Source: Arctopsyche grandis
Taxonomy: Eukaryota; Arthropoda; Insecta; Trichoptera; Hydropsychidae
Length of the DNA stretch: 64,000 nucleotides
Reading direction: 5' to 3'
Assembly (NCBI RefSeq): GCF_051622035.1
Contig: NC_135358.1
Coordinates: 12,530,001 to 12,594,000 of the forward strand
Position 1 is the stretch's first letter, and each line of letters starts with the position of its first letter. The position numbers and the translations under genes were made by a program. A model generated the notes under the pieces. It had not been told where the DNA came from and made no database searches. It saw only the letters and a list, made by a program, of their open reading frames with translations. Of the stretch, positions 3,110 to 64,000 are shown in pieces.

Positions 3110-3118
3110 AATATATAC

Positions 3119-39000: not shown

Positions 39001-40560
39001 AGTCGTTACAACAATTGTCTATTATCACTTTTATCGGATGTAGGTATGTCTAGGTTAAATGTTATCGTTTTTGTTCGGAGACGCATGTGATCTCGCCACG
39101 AACCTTTTCTTGTCCGTGTCCGATCTCTCTTTTTCTAGTTGATGATTTATGATATTTTAATGCGCTCTTCGTGTATAAATTCAGTATGCAATCTAAATTG
39201 GGTAGTTGGTTTTTTGTGTGCAAGTACTCGAAAGCAGGCGACGATTGAATTTGCTCGGTCGTATAGTAAAGTAACGACTCGTTAATTCGTACGCCATGCC
39301 ATGGCGGTCTGACGCAGATTCAACCTTTCACTTGTGTGAAAGTTTAGCGTAGTAGAATATTCTGTAGTTTGCTGCAGAGTATTAATTAAAATCTGCGCCG
39401 CGTTTTGTTTTAATGGAATTGAAACGTTTTGTACTGCGAGATGAACGTGGTTAGCGTGAGAATTTTCGCATTGAAGATGTTCAGTTTTAGTAGTCGGGGT
39501 TTGTGAAAAGAAGTCAACGTTTAAATTAATATTCTGTTCATTTAAGGTTTCTCTTTGTTCCATGGAGTGTTTGATGCAAATGAATTGTAGCAAAGTGTTG
39601 AGGTTTTATCCGTATTTTTTGGTTATTAAAACTTTTGTTGTAGCCAATATTTTTACTTTATCTGTATATTTTTTTTTAGTAAGAACGAAATGATTTGCTT
39701 TGTTTTATTTTATTTTGCTCAAATCGAGATATTTTTTTACACTTTTTATTAAATTTAATACTATCAATTCGATTTTCATTTCATGCCATAAATATTTAAT
39801 CCGATTATTATAATTATGATATTGGAAATCTTGTCGTTATATGTATACAAAATTAAAGTATTGATAAAGTGTGAATATATATTTTCGGAATACATTATTT
39901 GCATCACTCATCGATTATTCAGGATGTAAATAATTGTAACAGTAAAGGATTATAAATAAGATTATTCAAGATGATTTATTTTCCGGTTAACTTGTTTCTC
40001 GTAAATAATGTTTTATTTATATACAACATGGAAAAACTACATTCTATTTGAAATTTTGTATCTTTTTTGCACCAAAGTTGTCTATTTGGTTTCACCCGCT
40101 GTTTTTACGTAGAACTATGAAGCTCTTGTGGACCATATCTTGTACATTTTCTTCGTAAATATTGTTGGAATATTTAACAATAGTTTCGTTTACTTGGATC
40201 ATTTATGGCTCTTCGTGTTCAATTTTATACTTTTTTCGCATAGTTATTATATTATTGTTACGAAGCGTCATTCTCGTTTTATACAAAGTATAGCGAATAA
40301 GGTGACTCGTTTTAATTTCGCGATTGTTATTTTATCGACAATGGGTTCGTAAAAAATACAAAATATCAATATTTCTAATTGTACAAGTGCAGAATATTCG
40401 AAGGAATTCTCAAAAAGAGCAGGCACCAAAATACACACTTCCATCGAGTGGATCTACTTCTTTTTCTAATGATGGCCCGTGAGAAGTCATACTGCAGTAG
40501 CTCCTTGCATAACAATCAAACAAAAATAACATATACAAGAGGTAAACCGCCACAATTAGA
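36031..40560. other. Intronic DNA, no gene seen
   Basis: No supported exon on either strand. It contains TACATATGTA blocks (36048-36067, 38144-38158), a (TG)n run near 36800, and a GC-moderate patch at 38300-38880 where frames on both strands are briefly open without recognisable domains. Confidence 0.45.
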
Positions 40561-40562
40561 TT

Positions 40563-40927
40563 ATGAATATTTTCTTTATTATACATACGTTTGTATGTAA
40601 ACATGGTGGCCGAGAGGAATCCCTGGCCCTGGAAAAAAAAATCCGGGCTTCTATGACAGACAAAAAAATAGATCTTATAGATATATTTTTATTATGCGAA
40701 AAATCTGAACTACCAGAAAAATACCTATATGGTACCGATTTCACATGGACACAAATAAAGTATGGATCATTAAATAAATGTTTTTATGTGGAATAATATA
40801 AAATATCAACATCGGTCAGTCGAACGTCCCGACACGGAGCCCTTCAAGTAGTCCGGCCCTTGAACTTTTTCCTAGCTCCTCGTCAGCCCTGTATGTATGT
40901 ATGTATGTAATAAAATGGGGGGGGGGG
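40563..40927 (+). mobile_element. Possible retroelement 3' fragment
   Basis: A small open frame ends in FTWTQIKYGSLNKCFYVE and is followed by about 125 bp leading to a terminal (TGTA)n repeat, AATAAA and a run of 11 G. A short coding remnant, a 3' region and a simple-repeat tail fit a LINE 3' end, but no reverse transcriptase motif is visible. It is uncertain. Confidence 0.3.
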
Positions 40928-41039
40928 TATCCAAGCGAAGACCAAAAGTTGGTTATGTGTACAGTTTAAAGAGCATTGACAAAATCTGCGATAGTATTTT
41001 TCAATTGTATAATTCGACGTATTCGTATTATGTTGTTTA

Positions 41040-41612
41040 ACCGCCTACCGTGCACGGTAGTTTTATGTTGATAAGTGAACATGAGAATTCGTTCACAGTG
41101 CGATTACAATTTGCTCGGTCCACCGCTTCTGCAGTAAGAAATTTTCCTCGAGTTTTCCGACAACGTGCGTCGGGAAAGCGTCGCGTTGTTGTGGCCACTC
41201 GAGACGATGGGGGGGGGGGGGGGAGGGGACCGAGCATCATGTAGAGGGGGAGGGAGAGGTGAGGCCATGTTGTCGGCGTTGCGACCGCGCCGGCACTCGA
41301 CACTACGTTGCGGACGAGCGAAGCGTTCGCACGCGTCGGAAACTCAGTATCCGCGACCGGGGGGGCCACACGAGCGCCACCGCCCCTCGGGGCACAGCCC
41401 CAACATCCCGACCCACATTCGCACCATCCCCTTCGTAGTTTCGTCTCGACGTGATTTCGTCTCGGAACCGCGTGGTTTGTGGAGCGGCAGCGGCGGCGCG
41501 TGAAAGTGAACGGGACGCGACCACTGGGTCAGCAGCGCCGGATGCGCCTCGCTCTAATATGGGTTAAGCGGCTGCAGACACTCCACTGCACCACCACACA
41601 TGCACCAACAAC
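41040..41612 (+). promoter_or_regulatory. GC-rich promoter/5' leader of the intronless gene
   Basis: This is a CpG-rich block contrasting with AT-rich flanks and ending at the start codon at 41613. It includes a run of 15 G at 41209-41223. An upstream ATG at 41600 opens a frame that overlaps the main start. Several frames on both strands are open here only because of base composition. No TATA box was identified. Confidence 0.5.
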
Positions 41613-43349
41613 ATGAGCCCGGCCTCACAGGCGGACGCCCTACACGTCGACAGATACGTCGGAGGATACCTCATTGCCAACAACAACAACAACAACAACC
41701 AACGCCAAGAACAACGACACTACAACAACTACAACAAAACGGTTCCTAAGAAGAAACAACTCCACTACATACCTCCAGCCAACCTCTACCAGGGTGGATA
41801 CGTACCCGCTAACGGCCTCTTCCCACCCACCAACTTCTGCCCCAACCAAAATAACTGGACTGGCGTACCTCTCATATCCACAGCCAACGCCAGGCGCAAC
41901 AGAAAACCACACTCAAATTACCCACCTCAAAACCTATCACCACCTTTCCACAGACAACCCATACAGATCTTAAATGGGTCGTGCAACGTCGAATACGCAG
42001 AGGGACACTTGCCGCTGTCTAGGCTCGCTCTACACACCCAAGGCGCGCCTCTCATTCTCGCCAGGAGGTACAACAACAACAACAACAACAACAATAATAA
42101 TAACAACAACAACAACAACATCAACAACAACCGTAAACAGAATCCTTGTCAAAGCGGTTACAGGGCGACGACGAACCCGAACGATGTTCGGTCTCCCACC
42201 AGTGCCGATTTCGTTATTAGAAAGTTTCACGACACGCTGCTACTGCCCCGAGATGGTGGTTTCGAGTGTAAAAAAGAACAAACTAGTGTTGCCGTCTCGA
42301 ACTCCAATCAGAGTATCAATCAAGTGTTGAATCTCGACTCTCTCAGTGTTACCAGTGATGAGAGCTCGGGTTCTACTAACTCGGAAACTTGTTTACCGCG
42401 CATTATCAAGCCGAGGAAGAGAAGAAAGAAGGATCGGAAGCCGCCCAGTGCTGGTGGTGATAAGACCCAATATGGTGGCGATTCAAAGTCGGAGTCTGCG
42501 ACTAAAGACGAGTGCTACGAAGCTACGGACATAAATAGGAATAATGTGTACAAATTTAGTCCGGAGAAGGCGAGTCAAGACGAAAGTGTAACAGAAGGAA
42601 AGCACTCATCGACGTGTACGACCGAGAAATCTTCTCAACCGCAGCTGAACGCGACCAAAAGTCGACACACTTCCGACGACGTAGAGGACGACTCTGACGA
42701 TTCGTCGTCGCTGTTCGAAGCCATCAGCAGATGTTCCCCTACGATGTGTCAGTGTAAATACTGCGACCCGTCCGGTCAGGTGTGGGACTTTGACCGATTC
42801 TGCTACTCTTCCCTATTCACCACGTCGGAAATGAACTTCGCTTCGGAAGAGAAGTCGGGCAATCCGTTTGCGGACAAGGACTCGATGCTGAGGAGGAGCT
42901 GGAGTGAACCTTGTCCTGGACACTCGGTGGAGAATCTGCGCATATCTGGATACGATAAACAAGTATCGCCGCATCGCTCCGACCCAAATGTTTCAGCAGC
43001 GTGCGAACAAGATAACAACAACGAATCAACCTATGCAAAGTCGAGTTTCGGCGCTATCGGAACTGGAAGGAGGACTAGCAAGTCGCGGGAAACTTTTGGC
43101 GCTCCCGAGTGGAAGGCTGCTGCTACACCCCCTTCTCCCGAACACGTGCCAGACTTGTTGTTCAAGTGCTTCCCCTCACGTGGAGTCAGCCTCCACGTGT
43201 CTCCGGCTATTGTCACCTCGCCTGGAGGACACCGCGACCTCGAGATAAAATTCTACTCTGTCGCTGAGGATGATAAGGGTGAAGGTGACGATGCTACTGT
43301 TTTTCAGTGCGATCCGTCGAAAGAACCACAACCTGTCGCTGTCCAGTAG
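41613..43349 (+). CDS. Intronless gene for a 578-aa asparagine-rich protein of unknown function
   Basis: I do not recognise the protein. The frame is uninterrupted for 578 codons. ATG 41613 is the first in-frame Met after an in-frame TAA near 41565. Visible features: poly-Asn tracts at about residues 23-29 and 154-172; a basic cluster IIKPRKRRKKDRKPP near 264-278, likely a nuclear localisation signal; Ser/Asp/Glu-rich low-complexity segments; a cysteine cluster SPTMCQCKYCDPSGQVWDFD near 372-391; RRSWSEPCPGHS near 430; and a hydrophobic-basic block DLLFKCFPSRGVSLHVSPAI near residue 510. The cysteine cluster might bind a metal, but no known finger matches. It sits in sense orientation inside the presumed twin intron. 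Coding is supported by length, GC-rich codons and complex non-repetitive segments. It could also be a retrogene. Nuclear location is inferred. Confidence 0.8.
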   Translation: MSPASQADALHVDRYVGGYLIANNNNNNNQRQEQRHYNNYNKTVPKKKQLHYIPPANLYQGGYVPANGLFPPTNFCPNQNNWTGVPLISTANARRNRKPHSNYPPQNLSPPFHRQPIQILNGSCNVEYAEGHLPLSRLALHTQGAPLILARRYNNNNNNNNNNNNNNNNINNNRKQNPCQSGYRATTNPNDVRSPTSADFVIRKFHDTLLLPRDGGFECKKEQTSVAVSNSNQSINQVLNLDSLSVTSDESSGSTNSETCLPRIIKPRKRRKKDRKPPSAGGDKTQYGGDSKSESATKDECYEATDINRNNVYKFSPEKASQDESVTEGKHSSTCTTEKSSQPQLNATKSRHTSDDVEDDSDDSSSLFEAISRCSPTMCQCKYCDPSGQVWDFDRFCYSSLFTTSEMNFASEEKSGNPFADKDSMLRRSWSEPCPGHSVENLRISGYDKQVSPHRSDPNVSAACEQDNNNESTYAKSSFGAIGTGRRTSKSRETFGAPEWKAAATPPSPEHVPDLLFKCFPSRGVSLHVSPAIVTSPGGHRDLEIKFYSVAEDDKGEGDDATVFQCDPSKEPQPVAVQ

Positions 43350-44478
43350 ATTAGAAAAGTTTATCCTTCGACCTAATGAACCGCATCGTGCGTTAACGAT
43401 CTCGACAACCTTGAAAGTGCTTCTAACATACCTCGTTCGATCGGCGATCTAAGAAGAGTTTAACTAAACAGTGCCTAGATAATTTTAATCTGTAGTTCAA
43501 AAAAATCTATCGTAGTGCTATTATTTTTCTTTTTCAATTCACTACATAATGATTTTATCATGATGATAAATTTACCTTTAATCGATAGAAGCTTAATTTA
43601 TTGAGCATTCAATTTTCATTTCACAGTGGAATTCTTGACGCATATAAGTCGTTGTAAACATATCAAAAATAACACGTATATACTGTGTTTTGAATAGTGA
43701 ATTGCGCTAAATAGTTTAACACTTTTTCATATTTTGTACCTACTCTCGTTTTCCATCATTGAATCATGGTGCGATTTACGCACTTTAACATTGTGATAAT
43801 TTATGAAGTACCTATGTATCAACAATACTTCTGTATTTGCTCTTTATATGCCTGTTTATGATGAGTGCAGATGATTTAATTTATTTGTGATTTGTTAATC
43901 GTTTCGTCGATTCGTTTGAGACGTTTTAAGACGAGGCTTGTTGCATTTATGGTTAATGCAATCTGATTGTATTTATTGTGTGTACTCGAAACGAGCCAAT
44001 TTTCCTAAAAGTAATCGCGTTTGAAAACGCGACGCACGATCTCCTTTGGGTATTAATTTTTAGCATGAATGTATAGAGCTTCTTAGACATTTTTGATCTT
44101 ATAAACATAATAAGTAGTTATTAATGTTTTGTGTACTCTACGGGTGTCCCAAATGACATTTTATTTTTGATGGATGCATTTTCGTTGACGCGTTTCAATT
44201 TTGTGTCAGTATTTTTGATGTGACGAATGTTTGATGAATTTTAGAAAGTTTGAAAAAAAATGACAGGGTAAACCAGCCTTGGATCAAAAGCGAACTTTTC
44301 TTTCGAGAAAGGCTTTTAATAGGGGATTTATTACAGTGAATTAATTTTAAAGCGGTGACGGTCTTGGATCTTCTTTTCAGTTAGAAAGTTTTCTAATTTA
44401 ACAATTCACATTCGGGTGTGGTATTATTATGAAGCCTTTTCGTACAAATTTTTATTAACGATTCATTACAAAAATAAA
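43350..44478 (+). terminator. Presumed 3' UTR, with candidate poly(A) signal at 44473
   Basis: After the stop codon the sequence becomes AT-rich with no further frame. The first clear AATAAA noted is at 44473-44478, about 1.1 kb downstream. An earlier variant signal could be used instead. Confidence 0.35.
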
Positions 44479-46330
44479 CTCGTACAGAGGCTGTATTCTA
44501 CGCATACGCATTTTTTTTTATTGTTATTTATTGCAAAATATCCACAAGGCGGGTATACCTGATTGTTTTTAAAATTGTGAAATGAAAATGTATCCGTTGC
44601 TATTATTTTGTGTTGGATCGAATGATGCAATTTTCTGACTTGCACCAACAAATGTACGCACGTTTATGACTGTCACTTTGTACATAAATTTATACCTATA
44701 TATTAATTATTTTATTATATTCATTATTAGTTTGTAAACAAGGTTTTTCTAGAGGGGAGCATTAATTTGACAATTAATTTCGTTTTTGCCTTCACATTCA
44801 AAAACAATTATTTGTACTTAATTAACGCATACAAAATTCCAATTAAACTTCTATGTATTGAATTTGTATCACACATTTTTGAATATTTTTATACGTACAT
44901 ACCGTCTGTGAACGTTAATGAAATACTATTTTCAAATTGGCTCCTCATTATATTTTCAGACGTTTTTAATAATTTTGGGATGTCTTACTTTTAGTTATTT
45001 ATTATTTTTATTTTTTATTTATCGTTTTTTTAAGAGGCGATTTACACGATCGCCGAAATTGTTGAAAATAAATCGATTCGTTCAAACTTTGCTGTTTTTA
45101 ATTGCCATATAATTTGTACTATATATGTATAATACACATCCTATCCGTTTCCTTTTGCTATTTTTTTTCCAAATCATCACAAGGTAATTACAGTTGAATT
45201 TCAAAGATTATTACTCAACCATTTCGCTTTCAATTACATTATCTCCGTAATGCATCTTATATGCGAACCATAGATTTCGTACATTGCGTAATAAAAAAAG
45301 TAATTCACTTTCCAGAAAATTGCTCTTAACTATGTTTTTTTTAATTGTAAGATTTTCTCTTGCCATGAAATATCATTGAAATCGTTTCGTTAGTGTTCTA
45401 TTTCTTCTTCTCTACGTCACTGTAGTGGTAATAAAATCAATGAAATTTGTGTACATGTATTTTCGACACTTTTGTAATACGAGATTTTCAAACAGAGGAA
45501 ATTTATACTCCCCATACAACCGAACTTCTTTATTATATACATTTCTTTTATTTGACTTTCAGTTTGTTCTCTATTTCCTCCAGTCCATACTACGCTATAA
45601 ATGATTCTACAAAGCGATGTTTTCAGCGTCTATTATTTATCTTTATATGTTGTGTTGTATAACAGCATCCGACTTAATACTCATTCTTTTCGACCGCTTG
45701 AAGATTCAGTCCAACATTTCTTCTTTGTTGAGGTAGTCCCATACGGACATCGGACAGAGGAGCTCGGTCCAGATTAGTAGGACAGTCTCTGGTTTTGGGC
45801 CCTCGGGGTAGAAACCTGGTCGAGTGGCAGAAGAGGCGAGAGAGCGCCTGTGTAACGTTACCGTCGAGGCCCGTTAATTGATGCGCTTTCACTGCACTCA
45901 GCAGCACTGGCTCTCTAATGCAGGGGTAGCCAACCATGGCGGTGACGGTGGCCGTTGTGGACCATCCGCTCGGTTGGATTGCATTTTTTCCTCTCATACC
46001 GTTTTCAACACTGAATCCGATGTTATCTGTTCGATGTATGTATGTACATACAAGCGTGTACATACATATTTTTTTATCGTAATAATTCACTTCTGCTTAC
46101 AAGTGTGAAAAAAAAGCGACACACATTATACCTAATAAAATCAAACATGTTTACATTCCATGCAATGGAATTGTCATGAGATGGTTTATACCAGTGGTTT
46201 CTTGTCTACCTTCTGTATTTTATAATAATCCAGATCTCGCCAGCAGCAATAAACATACGTTTGTACAATCGAAAAAATCTAATGCAATTTTCGATTTCGA
46301 TCCCTTAAAGTTTCCTAACCAGTGTGTACT
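44479..46330. other. Intronic DNA; GC-moderate patch 45690-45960
   Basis: No supported gene. The patch at 45690-45960 contains CAGGGGTAGCCAACCATGGC (from 45920), which resembles hAT transposon termini, but no partner end was found. Overlapping open frames on both strands have no recognised domain. Confidence 0.4.
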
Positions 46331-46332
46331 GA

Positions 46333-46557
46333 TCTAATATATAATTTCGAAAGAGACTTTGTAACTATCTAAGGTTTGGGTGGGAGCATCGAAAACAAAT
46401 CAAAGTTTATATGACGATGATATCAATATCGTTGAATAATTTTTTTTTTTCAATTCAAATAAATTTAATAAAATACAAATGAATGTTTACTATTAGATTA
46501 GCTATGTTTAAGCGGTATATATTACAAATACCGAGCGAAGCCGGGTAAAACCACGAG
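46333..46557 (+). mobile_element. Helitron-like element, plus orientation
   Basis: It starts TCTAATATATAATTTCGAAA and ends with CCGAGCGAAGCCGGGTAAAA followed by CCACGAG, where CTAG has decayed to CGAG. It aligns with the copy at 2873-3109 in the same orientation and shares CTATCTAAGGTTTGGGTGGG-type internal sequence with the minus copies at 25421-25868. Confidence 0.6.
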
Positions 46558-48043
46558 AATATAATATTTTTAATTAATTCGTTTTTTTTTCATTTTTGTA
46601 GGTAAATACTAATCATGATTAATTAAAAAACGCAATTTTAATTAATTAACTTGTATCAAGGTATGATTTTTAGCCATTTACGAGACACCAATGAAATTTT
46701 GTTAAGTCATTGAAACGTTTTAATTTTTGTTTACTAGTTTATTTGAGGGCGATAAATGTCCTGTTGTTTTTTGTTATCATCGACTTTTTTTTGTTTTAAA
46801 ACGATGAATTTGCCATTTTTACTTTAATATACATACATAGGTATCAAAAGAATTTTGTTTTGACGTGTTTCAAATTATAATGTAAGGAAATTTTTTCTAA
46901 ACGCATATTTTACGCGTTTATTTATTTTTTTTTCAAATTACCAACAACGTTACGATCACAATTTATTATTAGACTGATAAAATAAAAATGAATGGATCCT
47001 AAAATGCGATTTAATCAGGAAATGTCGTAAAATGCGCATTTCGGTTGCTAAAAGATCGCGATTGTTTATCTTTTAACGTACGATAAACCTTTATATACAG
47101 TTAATTTTTTTCAATTCTGAATTACAAACGTTGATAATGTGTGTTGTTGTTTAACATGTCTGAGTGAGAAGGGTTAAGCATGTTTGTCGTAGCAATGAAT
47201 AAGCACTGTAAATATTGATGTACCGCTACGGACAGTGTGTCACCAACATTGACAGTAGGAACATAGCATTTGTTCCTTTGCATCACTAAGACCTTTATTT
47301 TATATCATCATCATCATCACTTTCTATTTATATGCTTGAATATTGGCTTGGAACCGCACAGGCGGATCTCATAGGGCATTATCCGGAATTTTGCGATTGA
47401 CACGCTTATCATATATACCGTATGGTCTGGTTATACGCTACGTCGAGTGTCAGACACTGTCGAAGCTACCCTGCTGACATCGAATAAACCAGAAGTGCTC
47501 TCATCTCCGCTGCACCCAAGACTCTCGTGGGTACATCGACGTCGAAAAGAACGTCAATTTCTTGTCGGCGAGATTAAAATAAAATGTCGGGAGTTTCGCG
47601 TTTATACAGCTTCTTCAGGGAAAAATACTACCGCATTCAACGGCGTATTGCATTATTAAGTTTTTCTTTTTGAGGGTTGTTTGCGCACTTGTACACTTCA
47701 ATTACGGCTTTTCTTTTTTTTCTTTGCTGTAAAGCAAAGGACGAGTTGTGGTGACACTCGTCCTACTTTTTAATCAGTGCTTATCACTATTAGGTACATC
47801 ATATCGGTAAGACCGAGCTTAACTCGGTAAATTATAGTTTATTTGCAACACTTTGGTTGAGTTTCATGGTCTTAAGACCGATAGGGCTCTAGTGCTAATT
47901 ATGGCGTTATCGCAATGTAAAATTGAAATTTCATCAGTTTCAAATGTAATAATTTAACCCCTTAAATGAATTATCCCAAGATCAAGATGCGTTCCATTGT
48001 GATTTTGAGCACTTCAATTGCATTGCAATTATTTATTTATTAC

Positions 48044-48103
48044 GAAATGGGTTAATTTGTGTTTACACAGTTAAAACTGTGTAAACACAAATTAACTCAT
48101 TTC
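48044..48103. repeat. 60-nt hairpin, 27-bp arms
   Basis: GAAATGGGTTAATTTGTGTT and onward to ACACAG pairs with CTGTGTAAACACAAATTAAC and onward to CATTTC, with one mismatch and a loop of about 6 nt. It directly abuts a second hairpin at 48104-48143. Confidence 0.8.
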
Positions 48104-48143
48104 TAGATAGATATATAACGCATTAAAATGCGTTATCTATCTA
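48104..48143. repeat. 40-nt hairpin adjoining the previous one
   Basis: TAGATAGATATATAACGCAT pairs with ATGCGTTATCTATCTA across a short AT loop, with a small bulge in the left arm. It begins at the base after the first hairpin ends. Confidence 0.75.
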
Positions 48144-49817
48144 TGCAAAGTGAAATTGTTTCTTTAATTCACTTGTCAATATTTATCGTGTGTTAATGGA
48201 AATTTGCAATTACGTTGAAAATTTGTCGACTCTTCCATTAAACATTGACACGTTGCACTTACATACAATTCATCACATGTTTGTGGAATGACAAAAGCCA
48301 TGAAAAAAAACTTTAAATTTATTTCAATCGAAAAAAAAAATTATTTAACGATCGACCAATCACGAACGTCTTAGACCAATCCAGCCAATCAGAATCGACC
48401 TTGACGATATCCAATCAGACACGACTTACAGACACCGTTTCTGTTTTATATATAAGATTTATTTGAATCGAAAACAAATAATGAATTGAATTGAGGGCTG
48501 TTTAAAATGAAAAATTTTTTTTAACAGTACACATTTTAAGGCATGGTAATGTGCACGCATGTTTTATATATTTTTTCGAAAGCAAAAGAGCTCAATTCTA
48601 GCGTGGGGACTCCGATGAATAATTTACGAAGGGATCGTGCTAGGATTAATAGTGGCGAACGCGATACATCTGACAGTCATTAATCGTTAATTACGATCGT
48701 GAGCCGAAGTAATCGCACTGTATTAATCTCTCGTTATTATTTATGCAAATATATATAAATGATAGCAACAGTTTGTATGTGTGAACGCTCGAACTATCTT
48801 CCTTTGTGCAATGAGGCGTTTGAACGCTCGCGGGGGAAAAAATCCGTGCGCTTGATTTATAATGTCGAATGTTGTTAGATCGAGTCGTTTCGATTAAATT
48901 ATTGCGAGTTTTATAATTGTTTTCAATATGGGTGGCACGTTGCGGGTCAAATGTCGATATAAAAGTGCATTATATTTTACATCTAACATTCTCGTGTCGT
49001 TTACCTTACAAACTTGCTCGTTCTACCTGCATATTAAGTACTGCTGTTCTTCAAGGACTTCCCCTTTCACGTTTAAAATTTATTAGTTTCCTTGTACGTA
49101 TGTATATATCCACTTTGATTCCAATTTACGATGTATTGGAATTTTTTTCGTTCGATAAATTTTTTGACTTGGGGTATTAATCGGTTTTTCGATTTTGCCC
49201 AAAAACAAATTGTGATATATAACATGTTTCGAGGCTGCTTTAATCGATCTTTAAATTTGAAATGTCGAAAATTACATTCGTATTCATCTATCAAAATGCG
49301 GATATGGCATATTTCACGTTCTTTTGCCCTATTTGTGTGTGTATGTGTGCGTAAGATCAATTTTTAGTAAATATTCAACGGTCGTCCGCCTCTTTGCTAT
49401 TGGCATTCATCGATTAGGCACATGCATTCTAAATGTACATATATATTATATATGTATGTTACTAAATATACTGGGGAAAAGTATTTTAATATTCATATTT
49501 ATCGAATGTTAATAATTTTTATGTCAATAAAACGAATCACACAGTGATTATATTAACTCGTTTATGATTTGCATTTTTCTTTAGTGTTTGCATTAAAGTG
49601 ACCGCTTTCAGATTTTAATCTTTCCTAGAAAGTCACCATGTTCTACATTTTTTTTTTTTGTCGTGTCTTCAGTACTATACCCACCGTTTAACGTTTCATT
49701 CTTTTTTGATTAATAACTATTATTATCTAAACAAGTATTAGATTGAAGTTACATTTAAATTTAATTTATACGTTGCAAAATGCAGTCCCAATTCCCTTTA
49801 TGGTGGTAAATTCTTAA

Positions 49818-50200
49818 CCAGCAGAATAGAACCTTTGAACAAAGTGGTCACGGTTTCAAATCCTACTTACTGGTTTCTGATTGCCAAATTTTGGATTTGT
49901 AACTTCAAGTCGATCGTTTCCTATCAGAGTTTGCTAATTTATCTGATTTTCATTGAAACGGTTCCAAAAATTTGGCAACTTTACCCATTTTCTCGCAAAT
50001 CTCGGGTTTTCAGCAATCTCGAATTTCGCTGAATTGTATAAAATGCTGCAAATTTACAAATCTGACCATATATGTTTCTGTGGATGTTAATTGATATGTA
50101 TTTATTTTGTATAACAATACTTGTTTCAAATGTACAATGTTTCTGACCAGGAAGGCGTATTGGGGTTTCCTCTTAGGCCTTCCTGGTATGAATTTAAAAA
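49818..50200 (+). mobile_element. tRNA-derived SINE, plus orientation
   Basis: The head starts CCAGCAG and contains a degenerate B box (GGTTTCAAATCC) about 40 bp in. A conserved core follows: CGATCGTTTCCTATCAGAGT, then CTGATTTTCATTGAAACGGT. The 3' end is a hairpin, ACCAGGAAGGC (50146-50156) with GCCTTCCTGGT (50177-50187), then an A-rich tail. The same head, core and hairpin occur at 58383-58839 in minus orientation. The hairpin tail was probably acquired from a partner LINE. Confidence 0.7.
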
Positions 50201-53200
50201 AAAATAGTGTTTATAACATTGAAACGGCGTAATCATCATGTGGGACTATACGAATGGAGAAAACTACGGCGTGATGGGTTTATCGGGTGAGCTTCATTCG
50301 CCAAGTTGTGGGTTGATAGTAGAATAGTCGGGGTCGCTGACCATCTACCGTAGATTGTCTTGTGATGCGGATGTTTGGCAAATTTTATCTTTAGTTAAGT
50401 TAAACTATACTTTTGATGGAGTTTTAACTTCTAAATCTCACTTTTGAATGCATTTGTTTGATATATGAAATGCATTAAATAATTTTAACATCAAGGATGT
50501 GTAATGAAAGACGTCTTTGAGAATACTTTTGTAAACCAGTTCTATCTACGGTGCCGCGCAGTCTAACCGGTCAAACTAAATGTTTTACGGACTAGTCAGT
50601 CGCCATCCACTCAGTGTATGTACTTTGAAATTGTATTGTGCTATCGACGAAATGCTCGCTTTACACAATTCCTCCTCAAAATTTAATTAACAGAACTTCG
50701 ACAGTGTTCCGACGAGACTACTCTACATTTCCAGACAGTGGTGACGGTTAATCGAAGTTCCGACCTGGTTCTGTCGACGATCTCGCTCGTTAAGTACATA
50801 CGTGGTAAATCGAGTACGTACATACATACATAGATGCTTAGAGCTGGCTTTTTTTGGCGCGCGTGACGAAATCTCGGTTGCCGTCATCCAGATTTGAAAC
50901 TGCCTTCGAAAAGTATGAAATAATCGTTGCGGTCTAAAGCCGGAGCCATCCACTCGGCAGACAGATAATTATCTCGCGTTGGCCAATATTTCGGTTAGTG
51001 TGAATGTATTTCGGAGTACGCAATTTTCTTTTGTCCGACTTCGCAACTGTCGAGTTTTGAACGAATTAAGTCCTTTTATCTTTTTCGTTTTCACTTGTCG
51101 ACTACATAAAATGCTAAATAATCGATTGTACGTCACTAAATGACGTCGTGCGTAATTAAAAAAATCCCATATCTAATGATAATTATATGCATGAGTGGTT
51201 TTGATGGGCAATTAAAAACTAGAATAACTAGTAATTTAATTTTCCTTTTATGCCATCAATTTTGTGTACCTACACGATCTTATTGGAATCTTTTTGGAAT
51301 ATTTTCGCTTTGGTATGTCTTTTTTTATGAGTGTGTGTGCTTAGTTTTATTATATAACATAATTTTTATTTTATAGTTTTTGAACTGCTCCAATTTTATA
51401 TCCGTAGAACACTCCCACGTATGCAGTATTAAATTAGGTCACGAAAGTAATTGCGTCATCGTTTTCCACGTGCATCCATATAATTTTCATTACTGAGTAA
51501 AGTCGCAGGTATAAAAATAAATTTGTGCTCGCTTTCCTCTTAATCTGATTCAGTGGAGTGACTAGTAGTCGTCACTTTTCTGTTTCGAAGCCATGCATAT
51601 TTGAATGGAAAAATTTTTGTTTCGCTACGTTATTGAATAAAAATTAAATGAAATTATTTATAGTGAATCAATAAAATTTTGTTGGTTATTTTCCTATTCA
51701 TAATTGACAAAGGGGGGGGGGGGGGGGCATATATAAAAAAAACTTTATTTAATATAAACCGAAATGTCATCACAAGCTATTTAAAAATGATGATTTTCTC
51801 ATATATCCATGTATGTAATAATTAAAAATATATATTTTGGAAATTGACAATCATTGAATTAGTTAATATTGACGCTCTACCGAAAGCTTTCAAGACGCAT
51901 CGATATTTGCAAAAACAATTAGTTCAGGAATTTAAGAATAATACGTTCATAGTTCGCATAGGCACTTTTGCGATAAAAAGGTGCCCATTGTTGAAAATTT
52001 GCATATTTGTCGGCAAACATGAGCCGTTTTTCACATGTATTTATTCATAAATTTACATATTTACACTTACTTCCCTCTCGAACGAAAACACACCGCATTG
52101 TAAAAATTCAAGACGCTAATTATTAACAAACGTTTTGTTTCTCTACCTTTTTCCACAAAGGCGCAACGGAGAGGCGAGGGGGGGGAAAGGTCACCTTTGA
52201 CCGATTATCGATATGCAATCAATCAAAATTATAATTCAAGCGTCTTAATAAATTATATTGCGGCTAGTCGGCAACGGGGAGGAGCTTTTGATTTACGAGT
52301 ATCCTAAATTCGCCGAATTTGGCCACGAATGCGATCGCACTTTTTGTTCATTTTCACACTTTTTCGACCTTCGATACGCCTCACATGGTGAGATTTACCA
52401 GCCTATATGCGTATTTGGTATGAACTTGCCATGTGGGTCGCGAGAATATTATGTATGTATGTAGTTAACTGAAACACCTCGGTATGCTTCGAGTGTACCA
52501 ATTATGCACAGTATGTATAATAGTAGACATTTTAATTGCGTCGGCTCTAATATATTATATTTTATTGCACGTCGTTGGATTAATATTATATTGTGTTATA
52601 TAAGAGTGTAATAATGAGGTGTAACTGTAAATCAGACGTGTCTGTCGTCTTCGAAAATATGGGCAATAGGTCGAATGCGAGTTTAACGAAGCAGTTTGTA
52701 AATCATTCGCGGATATAATTATCGGACAAGATCAACGTTTTGTATAGTAATAATGTCGTCGTAGCACGCGATAGCTTGTAAATTTCAAAAGTCGGAAAAG
52801 AAGTGCGTTCGAAATAAATTACAAAAATAACGTCGTATATTAAAAACAAATTCTTGCGTCCTTCGCCAGTTGATCTGTGATAAATGAGCACAATTACGCG
52901 AATACCATTCGTTTGTTTTTTTTTTATGTTTATAGTTACGCAAATTTCGTATTGCCGAGACTGTCGTCCATTGTCCGTATCGTTTTGTCTACCATTGAAT
53001 TGCAGGCGTTCTTAAAAAATGTTGCACTAACAATGACCAAATTGTGACAAATATTGTGCAATAGGTTTTCTTTTACGTCAAAGACAAGACGCTGTCGAAA
53101 ATTCTGTTCAAACCTTTCAATTGCGCTTGATTAGTGAACTATACTTTTGCTGTAGTAATTTTGTCTCTATTTGTTTTGCACTTTTATTTTTGCAATCCTT

Positions 53201-56200
53201 TATTCACTATTTACAGTGCACTATACCTTCAGCTTCATATAACTTAAAATCATTGGAGAACTTTTTGAAAAACGGTATTTTAGACAAGGAATGTATATAG
53301 TGCAGGCAGTATGCGTTTAGATTGGGAAAGGATGTAATGCCATTTAACGACGATTTTTTTTAGGAAAACTGTCGGAAATTATTTACAATGTGTTTGATCA
53401 TAAACATCCTAGGAGGAAGGACAAAGCAGGATACACAGACTTACATTTTAAGTGAAAAGCCAATTTTAGAGATATAAAATTAATTTATGAAGATTTTTTT
53501 CTGTTACATATGAACATGTTTATACTGGTTTTTGTTTTCAAGAAAACAATGTTTTTTTTTTTTTTTTTTTGTAAAAGCACCTATCAGTATAGATTTCATT
53601 ATGTTAGTTCCAGCAAACACAATAACTCCAACTACAAATATCTATTTATTTTGCATGTTCAAATCCTTGAATAACATTCAATACATTACAAATGTATTTA
53701 TGTATGTATATACGTACATCTACTAAATATGGAATATAAGTGATGCACAGACGATTTAAAATTTTTGTTGCTTCATCGTCATCAGTGATACTTATGATAT
53801 TTCATCAGATATTTGAATATTTGCTATACATATGTATGTACATATGTATATGATTTTTCCACTCTTTGATGAAAAAAAAATATATTGATTGGTGAAACGA
53901 ATACTTTGAGATGCCCAACAAATAAATAAATAAATTCTGACAAGAACCAAAGTATAATATATAAGCTTTTACAAATCATCGAATTTATCCACTTTTTTCA
54001 GGGCTTAACTCAAGAATCTTTTAGTCACAAATAGACATTCTATCGATTGAGCATTTGCCGAAGATTTATAACTTTATACTACATAATAAATAGCCAAGTG
54101 TTGACGGAAGAATTTAACTGACTCTATGCAGCTTAAGACGCATTCGAGCAGGGAAAGTGGCTTTTCTCGTTCACTCTATGGGGGTCAAAACAGAGGCTCA
54201 CCGTAAGGCATGGGACATGGCTCGGCAGCCTTATGGACTGATTAACGACTTAACGTTCATTAACGACGACAACCCAGGCGAACAAACCGCAATAGCGCCA
54301 ACCCAGAGAGAACGAACAGGTGATGTGTGCAAATTTCCGTTATCGATGTTGGAAAACCATCTCGTTAAATTAATTCGCAAAACCGTTTTATATGTGCGGT
54401 GTGTGGGTGGGTGGGTCCACTCGGTGGCGGTCTCGCGTGAAATATAACAAACAAAAAAGAGGAAAATAAATTAATGCGGTATCTTTAAAACCAAGTGCGT
54501 AGAGCTGGCCACTCTGCCGCATCATCGTATGTAATTTATTCGCACCGTTCGCTGCTGCTCGCAAACTTTTCATATGAAGAAAGGCGATGCTATGTATGTA
54601 GAACCGATTGAATCTTAATAACCTTATACTCACACTAGCCAAATAGTTCAAATGTTGACTCACTGACTTGTAGACGTGTGACGTAAAGTAAAACCCAATA
54701 TTGAGTCACATTCGTTTGTGACTCTTTTCCTATATGCATGTGAGTAATAATTTCGTTTTGCGCATACCATTAAGAATTATTTATTTTAGTTTGTAACTCA
54801 ATTGTTTCGACAGTTCAATTTCACTTTAATTTTACACCATTCTCTTTTTAACAAAATTTTGAGGGCATCGTCATTTTCAACCTTTCACCATCCACTGTTG
54901 ACTGAAAGCCTCTTTAATCTTATTCCTTTCCTGTCTTTCTTGCTCGACACTCATCCACTATGCTTCATTTACCATCTATCATCCAACCATCTTTTTATTC
55001 GACGTTTGCTTTCTTTTTTTGTATCCTCTTGGGTACCATATTTGTTGATATACAGGTCCATTTTTACGTTTCCCATCCATATCTTTCTCATTCGATCATT
55101 TGATATTCATATCATAACATCTTATATCGACATACATTTGATTTTCTGTAACATGTTTAAGGCAAGTTACGCATCGTGCAATTCAAAAGCTTTATATTTA
55201 TTTCAAACATATTGTAGTCTTTAGATTTTGTCCATTCTTTCAAAAGCACTCCACTCTGATTTCATCCTTCCGTCTCATTTAAAAGTAAATATTGAACGTA
55301 TTAAAAATATTTTACGAATCGATACCCAAGAACAAATTCGTGGAAAATGCGTCGCATTTATTCTTGGGTTCGATATTTTACTCTCCTCCCTCCCTCCATC
55401 CCTTTGCTTCGGGAACGTCGAATTTTCTTCCCCTCCCCTTTAGCCCGTACGAGCGGAAATGGTTTATTCCGTGACCGAGCTCGCCTCCGAAAATAAACGC
55501 TATTTTTAGGTAAAACGTTACCCGACTATATTTCGTTCGCGTTCAATTAATTGACCACATTTTTACCAGAATCATGTCAAATCTATGTACATATATTGCG
55601 ATTTTGTTTGAACGCATAATTTTGCTCGCCCGAAAAAAAACTCTTATTCATAATGAGCACTGACGATTATTGGATTAAAGAGTATTAACCGCGCGTTCGT
55701 TCGCGCTTGTTTTTTTTTTACGGTTTTATTGTTTGAAAACTGTTATTTTTTGTTCGAAATCACATCTTTACAGTCTGATTAACCATTTGTTCTGTTAGCG
55801 CGAATCGCGATAATCGGTTGCAAATGAATCTAAACAGAACGATTTACATGCTCCCTACCCTTGTTACATATGAATATATTGTCTACTTTCGTACTTTATT
55901 AAATGAGGTCGTTTTTAATATTATAAAATTTTTCGAGAGTGAATTTTTTTGACAAGTCTAATTGCCATTCGAGTGAACAATCGTGCACGTTATTGGGAAA
56001 TGTGCTAATTAATAATTTTTCACGCGTCACAGCGAACAATGCGCGTAACAGTAACTAAGATGCTGTGCGAATTGTTACTCGTAATTTGTATCATTCGCCG
56101 AGTGTTAATAGTAATCTTACCAAGAGTGTTACGCGATTGGTCAATGTCATACCTTTGTTTTGTTCCGTATTAGTCGCATTCGTGAAATTCTGTAAATGCC

Positions 56201-56690
56201 TCACTTAAACGTTACATAGGTTATCAGATCATCTTATCGTAAAATGGCAATTGCTTCAAATTTTCGACGTTGTGTATTTAATTAATATAGGTAATTACGA
56301 GAGTACAGTTTTTGGATGTAACAACGAAATTTCTGTTAATAATTGTGTAAATAATATTTTTTTGACATCGAAAAGCTTATCTTTGGTTCAAACCAATTTT
56401 TTTACAATCAATTCCAGTTTTTAATTGACAATCCAGTGATTGACTAACTGGTTAGTATTTTAAGATATTGACTTTAAACTTCCAATATGGTATACTATGT
56501 AGCTACTGTTCTTATTATCTATGAGACTTCTATCCAATAATTACTTGACGTGTGCTCGTCTCGATTCTTCGAAACATTGGATTTTTATGATAGATATTGT
56601 TGAACTGAAATTGTGATTTTTATTCCACATTTTTCTTTTATTAAGTTTATATTTTCCTAATTTTTGAAATCATATTCAAATAGTGGTGAC
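50201..56690. other. Intronic DNA, no gene seen
   Basis: No supported exon. It contains a run of 16 G at 51712-51727, TACATATGTA blocks (53829-53850), an imperfect hairpin at 55319-55375, and GC-moderate patches at 50720-50960 and 54120-54560 with no recognisable coding content. Confidence 0.45.
55319..55375. ncRNA. Imperfect 19-20 bp hairpin, possible small-RNA precursor
   Basis: ATCGATACCCAAGAACAAAT pairs with ATTTATTCTTGGGTTCGAT with one bulged base and one mismatch, leaving a terminal loop of about 18 nt. Size and imperfect pairing resemble a microRNA precursor, but I recognise no known seed and the match could be chance. Confidence 0.2.
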
Positions 56691-56699
56691 ATACTAGGT

Positions 56700-56929
56700 G
56701 GGATCATTCTTCCCAATTTGACGAAGGAACCGTTTCAACAGTGAAATCAGAAAAATCGGCAAATTCTGATAGAAAACGATCGATTCGGAGTCACAAATAT
56801 CCAAGTCTGGCCAGCAGCACTACAGATTATACTTATTCTTTTCAATCTAGGTCGAGGGATCGAACCTGGCAACCTCTCGGTGCTTGGCATTAACGCAACT
56901 ACTGAGCCATACTGCTGGCTTTTATTCAT
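56700..56929 (-). mobile_element. tRNA-derived SINE, minus orientation, variant 3' end
   Basis: On the minus strand it begins GCCAGCAGTATGGCTCAGTA (A-box-like) and carries the B box GGTTCGATCCC. It continues through GCTGGCCAGACTTGG and the core CGATCGTTTTCTATCAGAAT and TTTCTGATTTCACTG to GAAACGGTTCC. The hairpin tail of the other copies is missing. Confidence 0.7.
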
Positions 56930-58382
56930 TATATTTATTTTAAAACATGAATTAACGGAGTTTTTAATAAAAATCGTTTAAGTAAATATAGTATGTGAAG
57001 GAGGAATGTGAATTTCTACTAGCAATTGATTTTTGAAATTAAATTGTACTTCGTATGCTCGTCTTCAAAATTTATTACAAGCGCATAGTATTCCGCTTCG
57101 AATTTTTAATAAGAAATAGGTAGTATTGATCACTATTTTTTACCATTTTAGTTCGGAATTACAAGTTGTCAGTTAGAATTATTATATCGTTCGATTTTAG
57201 CACGCACTGGGAAAATCCGGCACCGTACAAGACGTGATATTTTTTAGCGCATGTGTGCCGTATCGTGATTTCCGCGATCTCGAGTGCAACATTGTCAGAA
57301 GTTATGCTGTCAGCTTTGAAACATTACCAGCCGAGTGAGTGGAGACGAGGAGGATGGACTCTTTGTGTAACAGTATCGAAGCACCAGTCTTTAAATCGTA
57401 TTGAAATGTAGGCGCGGAAACTGGGTCCCCCGCGTGCGTTATTGTTCTCTCGTCCGCTACCTTTCTTTCTTTTTTGTTCCTGCGCGTGGAATCTATGCTA
57501 ACAACGCGATTTCCTCACGCCGGTGGGCTATCATAGTCTCTTCCTCTCCCACACCTTTTGCTCAGCTCGTCCGCTATGTACATAGGTGTATCCTTCCCGA
57601 GGAAAAATCAAAGTCTACTGTTACCTGGCCGATTCGATAAGCGCGCGTCATCCGGTACGAATGACATCACATTTGAATTTCCATTTCCTACTCCCGAATG
57701 CTAATCAAGGGGAAGGCATCGTATATATTTATAGGCAGGTATATATGTATGTACTTGGGTACTCTTGGCGATGGCGTGACTGGAACACGACAGGGGAGCT
57801 CGTCCCCCGTACATAATGACATATTACGTCGGAAAAGCTTCACTCAAGATAGTGGAAGCTTTCGATTTAATCGGAGCAAATACACGCGACGCGTTCGAAA
57901 GGCTCAATTCTACGCCTATTCAATATTCGCAATCAGTTCCTCTATACGCGCGTGCACAATGGAAACGCTTTGCTCTGGAGTTTGTTTAATGAGATTTAGA
58001 GTATCGTATGTATCTTTCCTTTTTGATGGGTTTGTGTATGTTTTCCGCTGCTTTGTGATGATACAATTTGTATTGAAAAATATGGCTAAAATTGTGTAAC
58101 GAATGTAACCACGACAATGTCGTTTCGGATGCGATAGTGATGCCGGGTTCAGATTCATTCTGTGTTGAAATTGAATTATATGATAAATATGTTCCCAGTA
58201 TTTTAATTTTATTAAAATATCAAAATGGATTCGACATGCTAATAATATTTATTGAATCGTAAGTAAACACGAATCTGTATATGCCGTATCTTATTTTTCT
58301 TCATATCTACTATGATTTTTGGAAATTGGATTATTATTTTGTAAGCTTAATAGATTTGTTTTACATACATATATACAAATAT

Positions 58383-58839
58383 ACCAGGAAGGCTTAACAG
58401 GTAAACCCCAAATGCGCCTACCTGGTCCACATAATTATTACATAGATACATGTATGTAAATCTAAGCAATATCTGACATCTATGGTCAGATATTACAAAA
58501 ATCGTATGAATACGATAAATAACGATGAATAACTTTCATGTAACAATACGAATTTTTATATTCGATAAACAACCACAGAGACATCTATGGTGATCAATAT
58601 GGCGAAACCTAAGATATAACAATAACTAAAGGTTTGCAATAGAAATTTGGGAAGGAAAGGAAGGAAACACCAATTTTTACAGGAACCATTTTAATGAAAA
58701 TCAGAAAAATTGGCAAATTCTGATAAGAAACGATCGACCTCGACAACCCAAGGTCTGGCCAACAGCGAGACAGCGGGAATCGAACCCGTAACATCAAGTA
58801 CGAAATAATTCAACATTCACCACTAGACTACGCTGCTGG
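58383..58839 (-). mobile_element. tRNA-derived SINE, minus orientation, with 3' hairpin
   Basis: On the minus strand the head reads CCAGCAGCGTAGTCTAGTGG (A-box-like), then GGGTTCGATTCCCGC (B box), TGTTGGCCAGACCTTGGGTT, and the core CGATCGTTTCTTATCAGAAT. It ends in a hairpin of ACCAGGTAGGC and GCCTTCCTGGT. An extra segment with small inverted repeats (ATATCTGAC/GTCAGATAT) lies before the tail, making this copy longer than the one at 49818. The B box belongs to the SINE and is not a functional tRNA gene. Confidence 0.75.
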
Positions 58840-59424
58840 TTAATATAGATACATGGTTACGTTATAGATACATATGTACTTAGCCCCATTTTTATCATAT
58901 AGGGAACTCTTTTCATAATTTTGATTGTACGCTTTATTTAATCGTACGCTTACAAAAATACTCGGTAAGAACAATAAAATTACAAAATCGCTATTCATTT
59001 TTATTTGCGTATTTTATCAAGCGTAATCGAGTGATACTGTCCGCTCGTCGCAGTCGGCAATTTCGTTATTTAAATTGTGTAAAAGTAGCTCAGTTGTGCC
59101 GGTTTTTCGTGCGATAACGCCGTATTTGCTTATGCTAATTTATATAAACTTCTTTTTGAAGGGGCAGGGGGAAGGTGTTGGCTTTTCTAAAACCGGCCAA
59201 AATGTCGAAAGCTCTCGAATTACTTGCTAAAGCTCACCCGCCGCCTTATCTCTCGCCAGAATGCTTCTACACGTATTGCGGTGAAGCTTTTCCGTTGCCC
59301 CATCCATTCCAAAAGTTGAGCGGTGTGTAGTAAGTAGGTATGTACATATATACATACCTACGTCACCAAAAAATATGCTCATAATCCGAGGCGAACTTTT
59401 GATTCTGTACCATGCTTTTCTATA

Positions 59425-61212
<1,788 letters not shown>

Positions 61213-62680
61213 TATATATATATATGTTCATTTAAAACCCGTTCATTATATTTATATTTCCCGAAAGGGCATGTTTATCTTTTGCGCGTCTGTATGTAAT
61301 AGATCCGGCTTGTTTGCTCTTTATTTGAAACGAAATGTATTTCAGACGTTTATAAATACTTAAATTATGTTTTAATACTTTTTATACGCGAAAATTGTTT
61401 TTGGATATAAACGTGGTATATATGAAATTTAATAACGAATTGGTGCGTAGGCGGGTATAATACATGTAGGTATATGTAAAATAAGGTGTAATTGTATGTA
61501 TACATACATATGTATGTGGGTATTTGTCGCCGTGCAAGGTTTGAGTTATTGGCAGTTTACGGTTATTTTCGACTTGTGCACACTCGATTGTCAAATTGTT
61601 GATTGAAACAAAAAAAGGAACAAGTGTTTGTATGTAAAATAATTCCATTCAAAATGAGTAACTGTTTCATCGTCACTACCGCTAATCTGGGTTTGATAAT
61701 GTTACGTGTATTGTCCCTGTGACAAAACTCGACTGGTTGATTCAATGCTAAAATTACTGTTAGACACTTCCATGTGTCGTATGTAATATATATGTATAAT
61801 ATATAGGACCTTTAACAAATACTTTTCTTTTTTTACTTTTAAGTATTTTTTGTGTTTAAAAGTATTTTTTGTGTTCATTGAGTGAATAATAATTTGCATA
61901 TCTATTATAGTTTGTTATTGTAATACTGTAAGATTCGTTCAATATATTTATTTTAGTTTCATCAAATGCGACAAAATATCAATATATTTTTTGACATTTG
62001 GCGAAAAGCTTCAGAAAAATTTCTTTGCGTCAGAGTTTATTTGCCGCAGGAAAAAATGTCGAGCTCGATGACATATCGTTGACATTTCCTTTTCGTGCCA
62101 TCTCGTACTAGAAAACGAATGTGTATGTATACAACATAGAAAATGGGTTTAAACTATTGATATCATACATCAAATAAAACGGATAGAAAATGTATTGAAG
62201 CTAAACTAACATATCAAAGCCATACCATTTTCAATATAATATACATATGCATATCTAACGCACACAGAAATCATCAGTGAAAGCTGTTTGAGTCTCTCGA
62301 TAATGTACGTGTGAATATTCGCGAACATTATTTTTCATTTTTCACCTGCTTAAATAAGTGAATACATGTCGAGACTCTTTAACTATAAGTGAATACATGT
62401 CGAGAAAAACTTTAACTTTCATTTTAAAACAAATGTTGCCGTTTAAAACTGTTCATTTTTCATGCACATAGTAACTCACAACACAACGGATAGCGTATAC
62501 ATACATTAATGTTTTATCATAATATATGTATGTATGTATGCTTGGTGTGAATAAAAAATATAAAAATATATACTTACAACAAACGCCAGCAAGTTTGCGT
62601 ATAAGTTTCTTTCCATCATTGTAAAAATTCACATAATTTACTCTGTACATATGTACATATATTATCATGTGCTTTTTCAA
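61213..62680. other. Intronic DNA, no gene seen
   Basis: No supported exon. TACATATGTA blocks lie at 61498-61516 and near 62645. A roughly 33-bp tandem duplication (AAGTGAATACATGTCGAGA) lies at about 62356-62405, and a 17-bp duplication (AAGTATTTTTTGTGTT) at 61843-61876. Confidence 0.5.
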
Positions 62681-62717
62681 TTTTATTAATATTTCTTTTT
62701 TTTTGTTTCAGGTAAGT
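62681..62717 (+). promoter_or_regulatory. Candidate recursive splice site (ratchet point), strong
   Basis: TTTCTTTTTTTTTGTTTCAG|GTAAGT: a long pyrimidine tract and CAG acceptor directly abut a perfect consensus donor at 62711|62712. A branchpoint-like TTATTAAT lies about 25 nt upstream. It is on the twin strand and repeats the seven bases GTTTCAG and the GTAAGT of the site at 34437. It fits a zero-length recursive exon in the presumed twin intron. Confidence 0.65.
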
Positions 62718-64000
62718 TATTGTTTCAAAATACAAGGATACTGTACCATTTTCTCGAACATTTCGTGAGTTATATTGCAATATTTATTTTTATCTACATA
62801 TGTATATGTATGATATCGAATAAGACTTAATGAGTTTACGAACAAAATTTTATTATCCATGTTTACTATATCTGATTTTTCACAATATAATTTGTGTCTA
62901 TACCTAACTGGAAGTCCATGTTAATTATAAAGCAATCAAAAGCTGATTAATTTTATGACTTCTCACATTTACAATTGAATTTGAACGTTCTGAAAATTGT
63001 ATTTAAATACAAAAGATACCGACAATCAGCAGCACTGACCTGCTTTTACTGTTCCATGTTTATGAAATTGAATTGATTTTCCAGTTCGAGCGTGTATTCA
63101 GTATTGTTTTAATGTATTTCAGACGGTTGGTTTTTTTTATAATCGAAGGAAATTCGATCGCATGTCCCATTTAAATTTTTCTATTTGGTGCTGTGTGAGA
63201 CTAAATCCCACAATGTATTTTTAATCAGAGCGTCGAGTTAGCAGCTAGTTTCTTTTTGTGCTCATGTTGGGAAGTGGCTTTTCGTGCTTATCGCTCTCGG
63301 CGAGCGTGAAATGTCATTTTGGCGGCCTATTGTAGGTACGTACTTGACTATTGAATCGAACGAACATTTCACGACGTGTGCCTCAGCTTTGGATAGTATT
63401 CGCCTCGCCAATATCTATACAATAAATAGGCGGTCATTTGTCTGTGCACACAACTGGAAGAGATTGTTTTCTGCAAGCAGTCACTGTTATTTGAGTGTAT
63501 TCACGATGTGACGGTTTGGTCACAGTCGATTTAAGGATGATGCTCCAATATTATTTATCGTCTAAATGATAATAATATTTTGTTTTTGATTAGACATCCC
63601 AAGGTCCAAATTACATTTTAAAAGTTAATTTTGTTCATATTGATCGATTTTTACAAGCCTCTTCTAAGCTTGCCTTTGCTCGTTCGTCTGACAATATTTG
63701 GATTTGATATCCCGCATTCTTCCGATAATTTTGAAACTGCGATTTTTTTAAATTTACGTTTCATTGAAATGTACTATTAGCTATATTGTAGATAATCACT
63801 ACTTTTGGCATCGTATTTATGAAATTAAGAAGGGTAATGATTTGTTGTTGATTTTGTATGGAACAGTTTCATTCGCTTAAAATGAGCCAATTCTTAATAA
63901 GAGATGGTTAAATATGTATCATTTGCAATCGTGACACTATTTTGATAGTTAAATGTATTCGCTTTTTTTTTAATGATTTCAATTAGAGTTTATGTCGCAA
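62718..64000. other. Intronic DNA to the window end, no exon seen
   Basis: No twin exon or other supported gene. A short open frame at 63284-63511 has no recognised domain. Confidence 0.45.

Follow-up and report, generated by a model that had tools for sequence, protein, structure and literature searches.

At 62711|62712 of the DNA analysed here, a pyrimidine-rich acceptor runs straight into a donor sequence, an arrangement that raises the question of whether the site serves recursive splicing and, if so, in the intron of which gene. The DNA, referred to below as the window, is a stretch of 64,000 nucleotides from Arctopsyche grandis, corresponding to the plus strand of contig C4 (C4:12530001-12594000) in an assembly of 475,669,232 bases in 189 contigs; positions follow window numbering unless a contig is named. 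The initial annotation had proposed that the site serves the gene twin. Motifs, strand, intron limits, reading frame, spacing and recurrence, all of which can be read directly from the sequence, point to two recursive-splicing sites (zero-nucleotide ratchet points), RP1 at 34438 and RP2 at 62712, and these very probably serve twin.

Limits of the twin intron

Two exons in the window encode the leucine-rich-repeat part of CCR4/CNOT6, which bears the name twin in flies; CCR4 is an enzyme that shortens mRNA tails (deadenylase). Compared by tblastn with a sequence of human CNOT6, the first coding exon showed 53% identity (E 5e-27) and exon 2 showed 64% identity (E 7e-19). A phmmer search of the PDB matched nearly the whole frame of the first exon to CNOT6L (E 5e-31) and CNOT6 (E 4e-30), the chains of which were among 199 leucine-rich-repeat matches. 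A scan of viral contigs with exon 2 gave one weak match of 29% identity (L009).

Within the 64-kb window, tblastn with the CNOT6 query detected no nuclease-domain exon of twin. A search of the organism's own genome located six nuclease-domain stretches of twin on the same contig and strand, at C4:12636317-12637796, about 43 kb downstream of 62712, and 49 kb beyond the window was added to give a 113-kb stretch for the analysis of the intron. Across the joined exons 2 and 3 the frame, ...LLTYLLDSLQ-MRVPHPPQRPWIPLTRPNRTRPT, contains no stop. Since exon 2 is in frame with exon 3, the intron between them extends over 80,770 nt. The nuclease exons, which follow on the strand of exon 2, and this in-frame junction together place 62712 inside a single twin intron. 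These results support the assignment of the site to twin; a tblastn search of the window revealed no exon 3 upstream of 62712, which the initial annotation had named as contrary evidence. The coordinates of all features are summarized in Table 1.

Table 1. Features of the twin locus in window numbering; positions above 64000 lie outside the window.
Feature	Position	Strand	Details
First coding exon of twin/CCR4 in the window	23745..24089	+	preceded by an acceptor and followed by a donor at 24090; open ATG at 23785
twin exon 2, end of leucine-rich repeats	25222..25397	+	ends in phase 1; donor AAA|GTAAGT at 25398
twin intron 2	25398-106167 (80,770 nt); in-window part 25398..64000	+	own-genome search, alignment and frame
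Recursive site RP1	34418..34443	+	acceptor 34418-34437 abutting donor GTAAGT 34438-34443; 11% along intron
Putative cryptic RS-exon 1	34438..34492 (55 nt)	+	closed by donor AGG|GTAAGT at 34493
Third, weaker candidate	46582..46607 (GT at 46602)	+	TTTTTGTAG|GTAAAT; 14.6 bits; donor AAG|GTATGA 59 nt on
Branchpoint-like TTAAT	62686..62690	+	weak element; its second A (62689) lies 22 nt upstream of the final base of the intron segment
Recursive site RP2	62692..62717	+	acceptor 62692-62711 abutting donor GTAAGT 62712-62717; 46% along intron
Putative cryptic RS-exon 2	62712..62764 (53 nt)	+	closed by donor TTC|GTGAGT at 62765
twin exon 3	106168-106235 (G000:C4:12636168-12636235)	+	outside window; alignment and reading frame

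Several other features were observed in and around the window. On the minus strand, an open frame at 9205-9573 carries a Sybindin domain (E 1.6e-36) and is probably TRAPPC1/Bet5. The last segment of the twin intron contains a TA repeat of about 0.6-0.7 kb at 95477-96236, which translates into Tyr-Ile runs in more than one frame; at 91507-93789 lies an open frame of 761 aa resembling a retro-element. Scans of the window for tRNA genes and for Rfam families gave no matches. Elsewhere in the assembly, a CCR4-like stretch lacking internal stops (L001, G000:C183:5684-6655, minus strand) shows 36% identity to the CNOT6 nuclease query over 4-372, and may be a retrocopy, a paralogue or a contaminant. 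An intact COX1 of 512 aa under code 5 (L059, G000:C1:36084329-36085669, plus strand) is located inside a large contig beside frames that resemble COX2, ATP6 and ND2, and could reflect either the recent insertion of mitochondrial DNA or a join made during assembly.

Two abutting acceptor-donor sites

The sequence of 62681-62717 reads TTTTATTAATATTTCTTTTTTTTTGTTTCAGGTAAGT, with AG|GT at 62711|62712. The junction of RP2, TTTTTTTTTGTTTCAG|GTAAGT, thus carries CAG|GTAAGT preceded by a long T tract, and confirms the description of a pyrimidine tract and CAG acceptor directly abutting a perfect GTAAGT. Scores were calculated with acceptor and donor tables of rounded insect splice-site frequencies, which were not trained on Arctopsyche grandis; counts of exact motifs are independent of these tables. 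With these tables, the RP2 acceptor ranked first of the 1491 AG dinucleotides between the start of the intron and the end of the window, and the joint acceptor and donor score of RP2 was the best on either strand of the 113-kb stretch. The branchpoint-like element that had also been proposed upstream is present as TTAAT, but it is weak, and no CTNAY was found within 60 nt of the RP2 junction.

A sister site, RP1, was identified 9.0 kb into the intron; it is absent from the initial annotation, as are the downstream donors at 34493 and 62765. Its acceptor taken alone ranked 29th of the 1491 AGs in the in-window intron. No branchpoint-like YTRAY pentamer occurs within 60 nt upstream of RP1, and such a pentamer is likewise missing before the true acceptor of exon 2. 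By joint score, 62712 and 34438 were first and second among the 124 AGGT sites on the plus strand of the window (20.8 and 17.5 bits), while the best of the 157 such sites on the minus strand reached 12.3 bits. Over the whole intron and with a fixed background, the highest scores were 21.9 bits (62712), 18.0 (34438), 14.6 (46602) and 12.9 (96555), compared with 12.5 bits for the best antisense site. The exact motif CAGGTAAGT occurs twice on the plus strand of the window, with GT at 34438 and 62712, and is absent from the minus strand, from the reversed window and from the complemented window. The 113-kb stretch contains three copies on the plus strand and none on the minus strand, and the third copy, CAG|GTAAGT at 106473, is the ordinary donor of the next twin exon.

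We also considered 46602 as a third ratchet point. This candidate was rejected on account of its weak GTAAAT donor, the stronger donor downstream and a dispersed repeat that ends nearby at about 46569, and it is probably a chance match. No further strong site was found between 64000 and 106167, where the next best, at 96555, has the donor GTAGAT.

Between the 600-nt flanks of RP1 and RP2, similarity is confined to 29 nt at the motif (86%) and to simple-sequence stretches of 15-24 nt, and the two sites are therefore not copies of one repeat. A transposon origin of the motif was rejected, given the dissimilar flanks and the absence of any repeat of at least 30 nt over either site in the region 30000-64000; among the repeats of this length there, the nearest is a palindrome at 62624-62677. 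Dispersed element copies or parts were seen at 25412-25868, 46334-46569, 2872-3117 and 15118-15195, and one such stretch starts about 15-25 nt past the end of twin exon 2. The remains of a Tc1/mariner-type transposase occupy 59908-60891 on the minus strand, in two frames (HTH_Tnp_Tc3_2 and DDE_3).

Cryptic exons, competing readings and genome-wide recurrence

Downstream of each ratchet point, a second donor would close a short cryptic RS-exon (Table 1). As neither 55 nor 53 nt is a multiple of three, both RS-exons are out of frame, and translation shows that inclusion of either shifts the frame and brings a stop no more than 18 codons past the junction. An exact GTRAGT is found at +40..+70 of 1.2% of intron positions and at +30..+80 of 2.2%. 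Scored by matrix, the donor at +53 of RP2 reached 4.4 bits, and 1097 of 5479 sampled positions (20%) had a donor as good at +30..+80; by this measure the donor is ordinary, and only its exact match to GTRAGT is unusual.

Ligation of exon 2 to either RP1 or RP2 recreates AAA|GTAAGT, with a score of 8.5 bits, equal to that of the native exon-2 donor. At RP2 this regenerated donor exceeds the RS-exon donor at 62765 (4.6 bits). At RP1, in contrast, it is exceeded by the RS-exon donor at 34493 (10.9 bits), which argues against simple donor competition. These scores predict clean skipping of the cryptic exon for RP2 and, with less certainty, for RP1. A bolder proposal, which we consider unlikely, would be that the RP1 cryptic exon is sometimes included, such that this ratchet acts as a poison-exon switch tuning CCR4 while RP2 is a clean ratchet, and that AG|GTAAGT plus a donor at +40..+90 is the general means of long-intron removal in this species.

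The same two stretches, 34438-34492 and 62712-62764, might instead be regulated cassette or poison exons that start with GTAAGT by chance, the inclusion of which would shift the frame of twin and lower CCR4. Both have an acceptor, a downstream donor and the early stop described above, and after ligation at RP1 it is the downstream donor that scores higher. It would be unexpected, however, for two ordinary exons of one intron to begin with a perfect GTAAGT; moreover, the downstream donor of RP2 is weak, and AG|GTAAGT with a donor at +30..+90 recurs across the genome. We regard this reading as quite improbable.

A further consideration is that 62712 could belong to another transcript on the plus strand. 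The intron harbours a 593-codon ORF at 41568-43349 on this strand, in a GC-rich stretch, with the first Met at about 41613, runs of Asn and an AATAAA at 44473; searches of Pfam, NCBIfam and PDB gave no match to it at the thresholds used. The site 62712 lies downstream of this nested ORF. The ORF, however, ends in a stop codon, and with AATAAA following at 44473 no exon beyond 62712 is needed; the sister site at 34438 precedes the ORF, and the only donors that it could serve lie further upstream, for instance the donor of twin exon 2. On these grounds, service of RP2 to the nested gene alone was rejected, and an origin of 62712 in any such transcript in place of twin appears very unlikely. Both of these readings can be partly compatible with a ratchet, if a ratchet exon is sometimes included or if one site serves two transcripts.

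That RP1 and RP2 are chance matches in a T-rich intron is hardly credible in the light of the following counts. T tracts are common in the intron, and when the whole intron was shuffled 1000 times, preserving dinucleotides in 1-kb blocks, CAGGTAAGT arose at 0.119 per shuffle, with two copies in 8 of the 1000. None of these shuffles, however, attained the top score of 21.9 bits; a site of at least 18.0 bits appeared in 7/1000 and two such sites in 0/1000. Likewise, when only the in-window part of the intron was shuffled in blocks with dinucleotides preserved, none of 400 shuffles reached the score of RP2. Chance also leaves unexplained the occurrence of two sites in sense and none in antisense, the near-equal spacing of their downstream donors (+55 and +53) and the existence of a genome-wide class of such sites, even if the bare motif is only modestly enriched across the genome.

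For the analysis of this class, the strict pattern YYYYYYYYNCAGGTAAGT was fixed before any matching locus was inspected, and gave 14 matches genome-wide, as against 7 for the reversed pattern. Neither twin site matches YYYYYYYYNCAGGTAAGT, because a purine occurs in the eight-base tract of both. Of the 14 loci, every one of which was inspected, 8 had a GTRAGT at +30..+90, in comparison with 1/14 in the upstream mirror interval, 0/14 on the antisense strand of the same interval and 32/1792 in other intervals; this interval was chosen after first sight of the loci, and the count at the earlier-used +30..+80 was 7/14. A looser pattern, TTTCAGGTAAGT, gave 117 matches and its reverse 84. The donor test, with the interval +30..+90 now fixed beforehand, was applied to the first 30 of the 117 in contig order, which after removal of the two twin sites and one locus of the strict set left 27 independent loci. 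A GTRAGT donor was present at 7 of these and absent from 20, with controls of 0/27 (upstream mirror) and 113/3456 (other intervals). All seven fell among the 12 loci with an acceptor of at least 8 bits, leaving 0/15 below this cut-off, which was set before the output was seen but with the scores of the twin sites already known.

The matches to TTTCAGGTAAGT also tend to be paired. Among 100 of the 117 positions, 10 adjacent pairs within 100 kb lay on the same strand (the twin pair included) and 3 on opposite strands, while random placement over the listed span of each contig (5000 draws) gave a mean of 1.57 same-strand pairs and a maximum of 7. The other same-strand pairs, 11-74 kb apart, include C4:15889954/15942524, C7:21665088/21720954 and C11:23451818/23501593, and are candidate recursive sites of other long introns. 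As bare motifs are only modestly in excess (14 vs 7 and 117 vs 84), many bare matches are due to chance, and those with weak acceptors look like background. The recurrence of the donor, together with the same-strand pairing, indicates that a class of sites showing the complete anatomy of a ratchet point exists in this genome, and both twin sites fit this class.

Nor does 62712 resemble the ordinary donor of an exon ending in CAG, a reading of very low probability, for which CAG|GTAAGT at 106473 offers a precedent as an ordinary twin donor, but against which stand the top-ranking acceptor immediately before 62712 and the finding that no CNOT6-matching stretch ends at 62711 (tblastn, window).

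Proposed pathway and relation to known recursive splicing

For the use of RP1 and RP2 as ratchet points in cells, the order of their recognition and their purpose, we infer the following scheme. The spliceosome would first take the T-rich acceptor (62692-62711) to mark the start of the cryptic exon 62712-62764, with the GTGAGT donor at 62765 closing this exon and aiding recognition of the acceptor. The upstream twin exon would then be joined to 62712, recreating the 5' splice site AAA|GTAAGT at the junction. From this recreated donor, splicing would continue to exon 3 at 106168 and remove cryptic exon 2 together with the remaining intron. RP1, with its cryptic exon 34438-34492, would act likewise, earlier. 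By this scheme the 80.8-kb intron would be removed as segments of about 9.0, 28.3 and 43.5 kb, which offers an account of how a housekeeping gene for a deadenylase may cope with an intron of this size. The scheme gives exact junctions to seek in RNA-seq, and it suggests that such sites may be recognizable in sequence from the combination of AG|GTAAGT, the strength of the acceptor and a donor about 50 nt on.

Zero-nucleotide recursive splicing is known from Ubx, kuz and Bx of Drosophila (Hatton 1998, Burnette 2005, Duff 2015 and Joseph 2018, cited in PMC8605326 and PMC6110457), and has been worked out mainly in this genus and less often in mammals, according to the cited passages of these two papers. 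Drosophila ratchet points are well known (PMC8605326, PMC6110457, PMC8906543), and the initial annotation had taken their division of long introns to be established in Drosophila. A search of titles and the openings of abstracts found no report of ratchet points in twin, which may nevertheless stand in supplementary gene lists.

The twin sites share several properties with those of Drosophila. In a very long intron, a strong acceptor is juxtaposed to GTAAGT in sense orientation, and there is more than one site per intron, twin intron 2 having two, as does kuz intron 3 (~50 kb). As described in PMC8605326, a Drosophila ratchet point requires a donor downstream to close an RS-exon that is about 50 nt long and in general out of frame, with lengths of 53 nt for Ubx-RP and 56 nt for chinmo; the putative twin RS-exons are likewise about 50 nt long, out of frame and followed by a donor. 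The part of PMC6110457 considered here reports a high-confidence recursive site in 63% of fly introns longer than 40 kb, and a medium-confidence site in 7% more.

Other properties differ. Fly segments are typically 9-15 kb and the first of two sites lies near 33% of the intron, these being tendencies and not a defining rule (PMC6110457, as cited); two of the twin segments, of 28.3 and 43.5 kb, exceed this range, and RP1 at 11% is earlier than typical, with RP2 at 46%. At RP1 the donor of the cryptic exon outscores the regenerated donor. The assembly also differs in size from the genome of Drosophila melanogaster (475.7 Mb vs 0.2 Gb for fruit fly; PMC2773006).

Outside Drosophila, Shepard 2009 counted a combined RP-site motif in the large introns of mosquito, bee, beetle and sea urchin (PMC2773006). 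In the cited part of that study, RP-sites were enriched on the sense strand of introns longer than 50 kb, with 2.196 per 100 kb in fruit fly, compared with 0.101 on the complementary strand, and 0.484 compared with 0.122 in bee. Two sites in the 80.8 kb of twin intron 2, with none in antisense, resemble the fruit fly figure (PMC2773006). Whereas the combined motif was what that study counted, as far as its cited part describes, the spacing of the downstream donor was tested here as an added feature.

Vertebrate RS-exons (Sibley 2015 and Blazquez 2018, cited in PMC8605326) are similar to those proposed for twin in their exon definition and in the recreation of a donor by their first bases. Most of them are expressed, and the cited passages of PMC8605326 note only nine fully suppressed ratchet points in vertebrates; the putative RS-exons of twin, in contrast, are both out of frame. 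As a clear case from an insect other than Drosophila, combining the spacing seen in flies with a genome-wide class of sites, the twin intron suggests that the exon-definition form of recursive splicing is not peculiar to Drosophila.
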